Positions 41,093 to 44,616 of a DNA stretch of 64,000 bases are shown one piece after another. The notes below the pieces were generated by a model that was not told the DNA's origin, made no database searches, and saw nothing but the letters and a program-made list of their open reading frames with translations. Position numbers and translations under genes: made by a program. Numbering within the stretch: the first letter of the stretch is position 1; each line of letters opens with the position of its first letter. The stretch spans positions 3,789,001 through 3,853,000 of the forward strand of contig NZ_CP108568.1 of assembly GCF_036010485.1 (NCBI RefSeq), read 5' to 3'. Source of the stretch: Streptomyces sp. NBC_01198 (GTDB lineage: Bacteria; Actinomycetota; Actinomycetes; Streptomycetales; Streptomycetaceae).

Positions 41093-42013
41093 TTACGCGG
41101 GAGCCACCGTCAGGGTGGTGATCCGCTGGGCGCCCTGGTCGGTGCCGGGGTGGGCGCTGGTGAGGTCGGGGCGGAGACGGTCGGTGTGCAGCCGGGCGAA
41201 GGCGACCACGGTGGGCGCGTCGGACGCGGTCGCCCAACTGACCTGCTGGTCGCGGGCGGTGACGAAGCGGTCGTCGCCCCAGTAGGAGACGCTGACCGTG
41301 GCGGGCAGCGTGTGGGTGGCGTCAACAGTGAAGGAGACGGCCACGGACTCGATGCTGCGGGGCGCGGCCCAGCCGACCGAGACCCAGTCGGCAGGACGGG
41401 CGCCGCTGAAGGCGGGCAGCAGGGCGGTGGCGCTCTTGCGGAAGGCGTTGGACCAGCCGGTCGCCGGGTCGCCGTCGAGCATCGCGGCCGGCAGCGTGGT
41501 CGGCGCCCCGGAGTAACTGGCTTCGCCGAAGGGGGAGTCGGGGGCTTCCGGCACCGGTCCCGGGGTGAGCCGCGCGGGTCGGGTGGTGGCGGCGTCGGAC
41601 GCGCGGGTCGTACGGATCCGCGTCGTGGCCGGCCGCAGTCCGGGGCCGGTCGCGGTGACGGTGAGCCGGCCCGCGGCGGTGCCGGAGCGGACGATGGCCA
41701 GCGCCTTGCCGTGGAAGGCGGTGCGGGTGCTGGCCTGGTAGCGCTCGGTGCCCCCCTGCCGGCCGTTGTCGACGCCGGCCAGCGAGCCGCCGTCGACCGC
41801 GAAGGTGAGCAGGTGGTCCGCCCCGGGCACCACGGTGCCGCGCGCGTCGATCACCTCGGCGGTGACGTAGACCAGCGAACGCCCGTCGGCGGGCAGCGTG
41901 TCGCGGTCGGGCAGCAGCCGTACGGTGTGCGGCGCGCCCGCGGTCCGCAGCACGTCGGTGGCCACCGTCCGGCCGCCCCGCCTGGCGACGGCCTTCAACT
42001 CGCCCGGGGCGAA
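41093..42013 (-). pseudogene. GH2 beta-galactosidase-like C-terminal fragment
   Basis: About 307 residues match the C-terminal part of large GH2 enzymes. A DUF4982-like Ig domain (FAPGELKAVARRGGR, TLPADGRSLVYVTAEVIDA) is followed by a GSLAGVDNGRQ region and a galactose-binding-like carbohydrate module (PAAMLDGDPATGWSNAF, VSVSYWGDDRFV) up to the TAA at 41093. The catalytic barrel and N-terminal domains are missing, and at 42011-42013 the sequence switches abruptly to an alcohol dehydrogenase fragment on the other strand. It is a deletion remnant. Confidence 0.75.
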
Positions 42014-42313
42014 GGCAACTCCGACGCCATCACCTCGACCATCGACGGGCTCGCCCGGCGCGGCGAACTGGTGGCCATCGGCGGCACCTTGGACCCGCTG
42101 GGCGCCAGCCCGCTGCAGCTGCTCATCCCGGGCAAGGTCGTCCGCGGCCACCCGTCGGGCACCTCGCAGGACGTCGAGGACACGATGGACTTCAGCGTCC
42201 TGAACTGCGTCCGGCCGATCGTCGAGCAGCGGCCGCTGGCGGAGATCAAGGAGGCGTACCGGCGGATGATGACCGGCGAGGCCCGCTACCGCATGGTGGT
42301 CACCCCGCACTGA
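42014..42313 (+). pseudogene. Zinc-type alcohol dehydrogenase C-terminal fragment
   Basis: About 98 residues match the C-terminus of medium-chain alcohol dehydrogenases: SDAITSTIDGLARRGELVAI, SPLQLLIPGKVVRGHPSGTS, LAEIKEAYRRMMTGEARYRM. The catalytic zinc domain and Rossmann start are absent and no start codon fits. The fragment begins exactly where the GH2 fragment ends. Confidence 0.75.
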
Positions 42314-42510
42314 GGCGGACTTCCGCCCGCCGGGGGCCCTCCCCGCAGCCCGTCGCCCGCCGCCCGGACCAGCCGGGCGGCGGGCGACGGGTGCGGCAAG
42401 TGGATGGGCCCAGCTGCGACTTCGCCGTAGAGTCGGACATGTGTACTGCCGGCCGGGGGCCCGGCACGCGGTTCCGGGACGGCACGTCCCCCGGGGGAGG
42501 GCAACTCCGC

Positions 42511-44616
42511 ATGACTCGTCGCTCCAAGAGCGGTCCGGTCGGCGTCTGGGCCGAGATGCAGCGTCAGCAGCAGCGGCAGCAGGAGGCGCACCTCCGGGCG
42601 CGGGCGCAGCAGCAGCGCGAGCAGGAGCGGCAGCAGCGCGCGTACGAGCGGGACATGGCACGGCAGAACCGCGAACGACAGGCCGCCTACCGGCAGCACC
42701 AGGAGGCCGACGCGCTGCGGCGTACCGAGGAGCTCGACGCCCGCGTCGAGGCACTCAGCCGGCTGCTGGCCGCCGGCTCGCGGACCCCGGCCTTCCGTAC
42801 CGCCGCCCTCGCGATGCCCGAGCGCCTGCAGCCGTTCGACCCCGGCCCGCTCGCCCGCCCCGTCCCGCTGCCGGACCCGCAGCGCTACCAGGCCCAGGCG
42901 CCTGGCGGTTGGGGCCGGGCGAACCGGCGGGCGCAGGAGGAGGCGCAGGCGCGGTACTCCCACGACCTGGCCGCCGCGCAGGCCGCAGAGGCGCATCGGC
43001 AGCGGCAACTGGCCGCCTACCGGCAGCAGTACGACGAGTGGGCGGCCGGCCGGCGTGCCGAGATCCGGCGGCACAACGCCGGGGTCGAGCAGCTGGCCGC
43101 CGCCGTGCGGGCCGGGGAGCCGGACGCGGTCGTGCAGTATTTCTCCGCCGCCCTCTACACCTCCACCGGCTGGCCCGAGGGCCTGCCGCGCCATGTCGAG
43201 GCCGCCTACGACCGGGGCGCGCGCCAACTGGTGCTGAACTGGGAGCTGCCCGGTTACGACGTGGTCCCCGAGACGAAGTCGGTGCGGTACATGCCGACCG
43301 CCGACCGCCACAAGGAGACCCCGCGCCCGGTGACCCAGCGCAGGGCGCTCTACCGCGACCTGCTCGCCCAGTGCGTGCTGCTTGCGCTGCGCGACGTCTT
43401 CGCGGCGGACGAACCCGGCGTCCTTGACTCGGTCGAGCTGAACGGCTTCGTCGACGACCACGACCCGGCGACCGGCCGCGAGGCGCAGATCTTCCTGGCG
43501 GCCGTGACGGCGTCCCGCGGCGCCTTCGACGCGCTGGACCTGGAGCGGCTGAGCGCGGTGGACTGCCTGGTCGACGGTTTCCACGGCCGGCTCTCCGTAC
43601 GCCCCGAGCAGCCCGCCCCCGTACGCCCCGGGCGGCTCCCCGACGACGTGGGCCGGGCGCCCGCCCCCGCCGGCGCCCGCCCCGCGCCCGCCGCCGCCGG
43701 GGACGCGGAGGAGCCCGACCTCTTCGCCATGGACCCGCTGGCCTTCGAGTCGCTGGTCGCCGAGCTCTTCCGTGCCATGGGCATGGAGGCGGTGACGACC
43801 CAGCGCTCGGGCGACGGGGGCGTCGACGTGGACGCCCTGGACCCGGCGCCGATCCGCGGCGGCACGATCGTCGTCCAGGTCAAGCGCTACCGCCACACCG
43901 TCCAGCCCACCGCGGTGCGCGACCTCTACGGCACCGTCCAGCACGCGGGCGCCAACAAGGGCGTGCTGGTGACCACCTCCCGCTTCGGCCCCGGCTCGCA
44001 CGCCTTCGCCCACGGCAAGCCGCTGGAGCTGGTCTCCGGCGAGCAGCTGGTCGAGCTGCTGCACCAGCACGGGCTGCGCGGCCGCCTCGGCCCCACCGAC
44101 CGGCCGCCGGCCCCGGCCGCCACGCCGCTGCCCGGCCACAACGTGCTGGGCGTGACCTGGTCCGGCGGGGTCGCCCTCGACGTCTGCGCGCTGGTCTGCC
44201 GCGGCAACACCGTGCTGAGCGACGACCACTTCGTCTTCTACAACAACCCCGCCACCCCCGACGGCACCGTCACCGCGATCCCCGCGGCCGCCCCCGACAA
44301 GGCGGCCCTGCGGGTGGCCTTCGACGCGCTCCCCGACCGGGCCGACCGGCTCGTCCTGGCCACCGCGATCGACCCCACCGTCAACCCGGACGCCGACCTG
44401 TCCGGCTTCACCCGCGCCGGGATCCGGCTGCTCGACGCGTCAGCGGCGGAGCTGGGCCGGCTCGACGTCTCCGACGGGCGGGCCGGCGAGACCGCCCTGG
44501 TGCTCGGCTCGTTCCGCCGCCGCGCGGGCGGCGACTGGGACTTCGTGCCGGGCGGTAAGGGCTACGAGGGCGGGCTCGAAGCCCTCATACGCGACTACGG
44601 GATCGACGTCTCGTAG
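42511..44616 (+). CDS. Mrr-type restriction endonuclease fused to a TerD domain
   Basis: This 701-residue protein has a rare architecture. Residues about 10-100 are a Gln/Arg-rich coiled coil, followed by a second coiled coil near 145-200 and an uncharacterised middle region. Residues about 405-510 are an Mrr-like PD-(D/E)xK nuclease: FESLVAELFRAMGMEAV with the helix Glu, RSGDGGVDVDA with the catalytic Asp, and TIVVQVKRYR with the QxK pair. Residues about 540-701 are a TerD domain (DHFVFYNNPATPDGTV, ETALVLGSFRRRAGGDWDF, GKGYEGGLEALIRDYGI). TerD proteins are calcium-binding and linked to tellurite and phage resistance. A ribosome site GGGGGAGGG precedes the ATG. Nuclease-based defence is the likely role. 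Confidence 0.85.
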   Translation: MTRRSKSGPVGVWAEMQRQQQRQQEAHLRARAQQQREQERQQRAYERDMARQNRERQAAYRQHQEADALRRTEELDARVEALSRLLAAGSRTPAFRTAALAMPERLQPFDPGPLARPVPLPDPQRYQAQAPGGWGRANRRAQEEAQARYSHDLAAAQAAEAHRQRQLAAYRQQYDEWAAGRRAEIRRHNAGVEQLAAAVRAGEPDAVVQYFSAALYTSTGWPEGLPRHVEAAYDRGARQLVLNWELPGYDVVPETKSVRYMPTADRHKETPRPVTQRRALYRDLLAQCVLLALRDVFAADEPGVLDSVELNGFVDDHDPATGREAQIFLAAVTASRGAFDALDLERLSAVDCLVDGFHGRLSVRPEQPAPVRPGRLPDDVGRAPAPAGARPAPAAAGDAEEPDLFAMDPLAFESLVAELFRAMGMEAVTTQRSGDGGVDVDALDPAPIRGGTIVVQVKRYRHTVQPTAVRDLYGTVQHAGANKGVLVTTSRFGPGSHAFAHGKPLELVSGEQLVELLHQHGLRGRLGPTDRPPAPAATPLPGHNVLGVTWSGGVALDVCALVCRGNTVLSDDHFVFYNNPATPDGTVTAIPAAAPDKAALRVAFDALPDRADRLVLATAIDPTVNPDADLSGFTRAGIRLLDASAAELGRLDVSDGRAGETALVLGSFRRRAGGDWDFVPGGKGYEGGLEALIRDYGIDVS

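Follow-up and report, generated by a model that had tools for sequence, protein, structure and literature searches.

ScoA3Mrr (Sco4213), an Mrr enzyme of Streptomyces, restricts m6A-bearing DNA in vivo, and an Mrr-type catalytic domain alone does not imply methylation dependence, LlaGI being an example (PMC3874153). EcoKMrr shares the Mrr catalytic domain with its D...QxK motif, has an N-terminal, DNA-binding Mrr_N domain and is without TerD, while the modification-dependent enzymes MspJI and AspBHI read modified bases via an SRA-like domain (PMC3874153). The family catalogued by PADLOC as mREase_IV (PDLC03663) consists of TerD-less proteins of about 500–560 amino acids, named 'restriction endonuclease', from Actinomycetes and Alphaproteobacteria. 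TerD itself has been proposed to sense ligands or nucleotides in conflict systems (PMC7159879; PMC7824862). Ter-type modules, long helices and nucleases are linked in TerY-P triad and CoCoNuT systems (PMC11090510), and the triad has been tied to restriction systems (PMC11090510) and to defence (PMC7699616). In the literature searched, which excepted the main 2012 Ter-system review, we found no description or activity assay of a protein in which Mrr and TerD are fused. The fusion considered here is new as a variant only; the nuclease family to which it belongs is already known.

Domain organization of the fused nuclease

The window analysed is a stretch of 64,000 nucleotides of Streptomyces DNA, in which the gene at 42511–44616 (+ strand) has a stop-free translation of 701 residues. 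Its ATG lies at a start position kept across orthologues (M[ST]RRS, then a WAE motif), with a purine-rich GGGGGAGG about 9 bases upstream, and the gene is apparently transcribed alone, as a monocistronic unit. A preliminary description of this DNA had placed a helical N-terminus, a middle domain, an Mrr nuclease and a TerD domain in one chain, and the ORF translation, Pfam and AlphaFold2 agree on that layout, an NCBIfam search of the protein returning no relevant model. The full-chain AlphaFold2 model has a mean pLDDT of 81 and a pTM of 0.50, with lower confidence for the nuclease domain (10-residue blocks of about 45–80) and a confidently predicted TerD domain.

Two long helices are predicted in the N-terminal part, at residues 9–89 (42535–42777; Gln/Arg-rich) and residues 136–200 (42916–43110). 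The helix segments have a high content of Gln, Arg and Ala, and residues 12–70 are net positive in all orthologues, with a charge of 3 to 9. They had been described as a coiled coil, a reading that was not borne out, as in a simple test of the window sequence the heptad hydrophobic periodicity of both helices was no better than that of shuffled sequences. The middle alpha/beta domain (residues about 201–366; 43111–43608) has 23 invariant positions across 97 orthologues and gave a pLDDT of 89.7 when modelled by itself. A fold search with this domain found no structure at a Foldseek E-value <0.001, and no structural identity was assigned from the best VIA-align match, whose Z of 7.5 is in the range of common arrangements. 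Common to the PADLOC type IV (methyl-directed) family, the helices and middle domain are probably the parts through which the protein assembles and recognises its target DNA.

The Mrr_cat domain (Pfam PF04471; residues 406–517; 43726–44061) was matched with an E-value of 7.7e-32 and 110 bits against a cut-off of 21. Its catalytic segment, D435-G-G-V-D439 ... Q456-V-K458 (43813–43884), contains the D ... (D/E/Q)xK active site as D435, Q456 and K458; together with D439 these residues never vary among 97 distinct orthologues of full length, and the possibility that the PD-(D/E)xK site is degenerate in most of them can be set aside. The nuclease part matched AspBHI (Z 11.1) and MspJI (Z 10.3) in VIA-align, as well as 1y88 and LlaBIII (Z 10–11). 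Although it shares this fold with MspJI and AspBHI, no SRA-like domain was detected in the fusion; nor did a Pfam scan of the protein find Mrr_N, by which it differs from the EcoKMrr type. The PADLOC mREase_IV profile spans residues 19–521 (profile positions 22–527 of 544; E-value 1.8e-61). The evidence that the Mrr part is a nuclease is strong, and the fusion protein would be expected to cut DNA. Dependence on modified DNA may be proposed from the family and by analogy with ScoA3Mrr of S. coelicolor, an Mrr-type restriction enzyme of the same bacterial family that is likened here by its published description and not by sequence.

A variable, low-complexity linker (residues 522–542; 44074–44136) joins the nuclease to TerD. 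It has the lowest conservation of the chain (0.575 across 97 orthologues), and its residues 530–540 have a pLDDT <50. The TerD domain occupies residues 543–701 (44137–44613), of which 553–696 match profile positions 38–187 of 187 (Pfam E-value 2.4e-23; 83 bits against a cut-off of 25.3). A sequence search of solved structures also recovered TerD (3ibz, 2kxt); the predicted fold matched 3ibz with a Foldseek E-value of 2.9e-12 (TM 0.72 by target), and the VIA-align structure match had a Z of 18.9 over 161 aligned residues at an rmsd of 4.5, the fold matches being 3ibz, 2kxt, 2qng and 2qz7. The assignment to TerD, which a failure to match the family profile would have undone, therefore stands.

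By comparison with canonical members of the family (3ibz, 2kxt), the fused TerD is attached to a nuclease and is short of the N-terminal stretch and of most of the acidic (GDDE) loop. To set this in numbers, 17 acidic positions common to six canonical TerD sequences were compared across 97 fused copies. Nine, D557, D571, D584, D596 and E660 included, remain acidic in all or most copies, one is retained in just 17 of the 97, and seven are non-acidic or deleted in every copy; in 2kxt numbering these are D40 (with which DLD begins), D78, D88, E89, D113, D148 and E159. The losses include the D-E of the acidic loop. With seven of the 17 absent from every fused copy, a canonical calcium role for the fused domain is, judged from its sequence, unlikely, and the earlier suggestion of a calcium sensor is not supported by this comparison, in which the positions are conserved acids and not ligands read from a structure. 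Nothing bearing on membranes, the other sensing role suggested, came to light. In the host genome 13 TerD domains are spread over several genes, with tandem arrangements in some cases and long proline-rich tails in others (for example C1:6267734-6268825 and C1:5782364-5786531); atypical TerD proteins of this genome (L005, L006 and L010) are likewise without the acidic loop.

Distribution and descent of the fusion

A scan of species genomes returned 237 relatives of the fusion protein. Other Mrr–TerD fusions were sought among them and found: the best 80 of the 237 all span the fusion, aligned from residue 1–4 to about 700, and carry the names Actinacidiphila or Streptomyces with a single exception. 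The fusion occurs in many soil Streptomyces relatives. About 25 of 34 genomes of the same genus have an apparently intact copy and several have broken ones. Of 148 genomes sampled from the order, about 46, not counting that of the window, hold a protein with a middle domain of at least 58% identity, which marks the fusion branch, and other genomes hold relatives at 28–43% middle-domain identity. In a class sample of 148 genomes, relatives from outside the family matched only to residue ~520–550 and TerD was found in none. When the phylum was searched with the PADLOC profile, few candidates were scored in each genome, so that the counts are a lower bound. A divergent Kitasatospora plasmid protein, 45% identical, holds both domains (TerD E-value 6e-23).

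The mREase_IV relatives likewise start with a helical N-terminus, followed by the middle domain and then Mrr_cat, keep the catalytic motif and are 30–46% identical to the fusion over residues 201–521; they differ after the catalytic motif, where they have 62–101 residues and the fusions about 250–320, containing TerD. Since residues 19–521 match the PADLOC family and the relatives seen outside Streptomycetaceae are without TerD, the fusion is, on sequence comparison, a TerD-tailed branch of this known nuclease family. A tree of residues 201–521 separates fusions from TerD-less relatives by one change; however, long branches leave the deciding branch with weak support (52/15), and L147, which is TerD-less and belongs to a different family within the order, falls near it. 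A single origin of the fusion is accordingly tentative.

Selection was compared by region, with the medians for Mrr, middle domain and TerD taken over about 1635 close pairs. Median dN/dS was 0.22 for helix 1, 0.39 for residues 96–200, 0.25 for the middle domain, 0.14 for Mrr and about 0.27 for TerD. The value of 0.27 indicates purifying selection, and TerD is therefore being kept and is not decaying.

Copies are found at several genomic positions, some on plasmids and some broken, which amounts to an accessory distribution; plasmid-borne and broken copies with such a distribution are typical of other restriction nucleases. Broken copies were seen in G138, G010, G001, G028, G021 and G061, with split or truncated pieces among them; that of G138 has an in-frame stop near residue 180, and G061 holds a TerD-only remnant of the fusion. 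A search of viral contigs found no relative of the fusion protein, and this absence argues against a phage origin.

Genomic surroundings

The closest species have the same locus, and in Actinacidiphila relatives the fusion is flanked by FGE-like, NAGPA-phosphoesterase and DUF4232 genes. Beyond the closest species the flanking genes of 80 fusion loci vary by clade; clustering of these neighbours yielded none that was conserved, and an operon partner was rejected. The plasmid copies are on linear plasmids, one of which is mobilizable and has its copy adjoining AbiV, AIPR and PIN genes. At an E-value of 1e-10 PADLOC matched a handful of 87 flanking genes from 23 fusion loci, a count set against no matched control set and giving no clear enrichment of the kind expected of defence islands. 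One neighbour at these 23 loci is a DpdF match (E-value 2.6e-294) and one a PsyrT match.

In the window, the ORF at 41093–42754 includes a Glyco_hydro2_C5 match (41621–41920, – strand; E-value 2.9e-30), a C-terminal piece of glycoside hydrolase family 2; Pfam matched no glycoside hydrolase catalytic domain in this ORF, and the piece therefore resembles what is left of a gene. Immediately before the fusion, a stretch at about 42020–42310 (+ strand), in an ORF for which Pfam gave no match, reads by eye as the C-terminal end of a zinc-type alcohol dehydrogenase and is an apparent remnant.

A TerD gene next to TerD-less relatives, which could have served as a Rosetta stone, was sought in the sampled loci and not found. 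Beside the fusion there is a sole case among the sampled loci, a standalone TerD gene (L070:7211-7792, – strand) that adjoins it directly. In several Streptomyces the TerD-less relatives have phoU or phosphoglycerate mutase genes in their vicinity, a region where, by its gene number, Sco4213 is presumably also located. At two loci (L149 and L154) phoU is near the TerD-less copy and at a third (L158) near both TerD-less and fusion copies, a pattern that suggests a variable spot near phoU.

A TerD-less relative in two near-identical genomes is followed, according to PADLOC, by TerY, PP2C and STK_OB genes (L161:4722-10267 and L162:5295-10784), possibly as a four-gene system in one lineage. The TerY-P triad was missing at seven further loci of this family and at the other sampled loci. 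With the L161 triad as query, tblastn found no TerY-P genes (vWA, PP2C, kinase) in the flanks of the 80 fusion loci, and E. coli YegI, PphC and YegL had no phmmer match among the flanking genes compared. The TerY-P link, seen with one TerD-less relative only, was regarded as anecdotal.

Possible roles of the TerD domain

An intact Mrr nuclease fused to a real, conserved and selected TerD is the part of the preliminary description that held, and the calcium sensor is the part that did not. As the fusion is conserved and under selection, a functional link between nuclease and TerD is likely, and the conservation of the fusion suggests that TerD may control, or gate, the nuclease. The explanation that we prefer, and consider evenly balanced between right and wrong, is a stand-alone accessory restriction-type nuclease of Streptomycetaceae in which the Mrr domain would cut DNA and the C-terminal TerD, on its flexible linker, would bind a ligand or partner and thereby switch or position the nuclease, probably not via the canonical calcium site. 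The more specific proposal that TerD senses a small molecule made in infection or stress, and releases a nuclease otherwise held in check, is tentative and on balance rather improbable.

TerD could alternatively be a docking or assembly module that binds other TerD proteins and so recruits the nuclease to a Ter complex, with no sensing of a ligand. The 13 TerD matches of the host genome are candidate partners, and both the loss of most of the canonical acidic loop and the variable linker are consistent with docking; however, no ter gene is conserved beside the fusion and a standalone TerD adjoins it only at L070, and we regard this possibility as somewhat doubtful. TerD is associated with stress responses, which would also fit the processing or repair of host DNA in times of stress, as would neighbourhoods made up mostly of ordinary genes rather than defence islands and a locus that is syntenic in the closest relatives within the genus. 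Such a role, in place of restriction of incoming DNA, is nevertheless unlikely given the match of residues 19–521 to the type IV family and a patchy distribution with often broken copies, unusual for a repair gene. Least probable, and in our view very unlikely, is that a rearranged site in TerD binds a divalent metal, calcium or another, and that TerD gates the nuclease in this way: nine of the 17 canonical acidic positions do remain in most or all copies, but the seven lost from all 97 include the equivalents of 2kxt D40, D78, D88 and E89.

The preferred reading, of a restriction-type nuclease switched or positioned by TerD, concerns a protein that RefSeq names just 'restriction endonuclease', and its TerD half is readily overlooked. 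The fusion bears on the poor entry of foreign methylated DNA into Streptomyces. It also joins TerD to an enzyme with an easily measured output, the cutting of DNA, which would make TerD function directly assayable. If the nuclease is indeed released by TerD, a single polypeptide would here unite type IV restriction with the Ter stress system.
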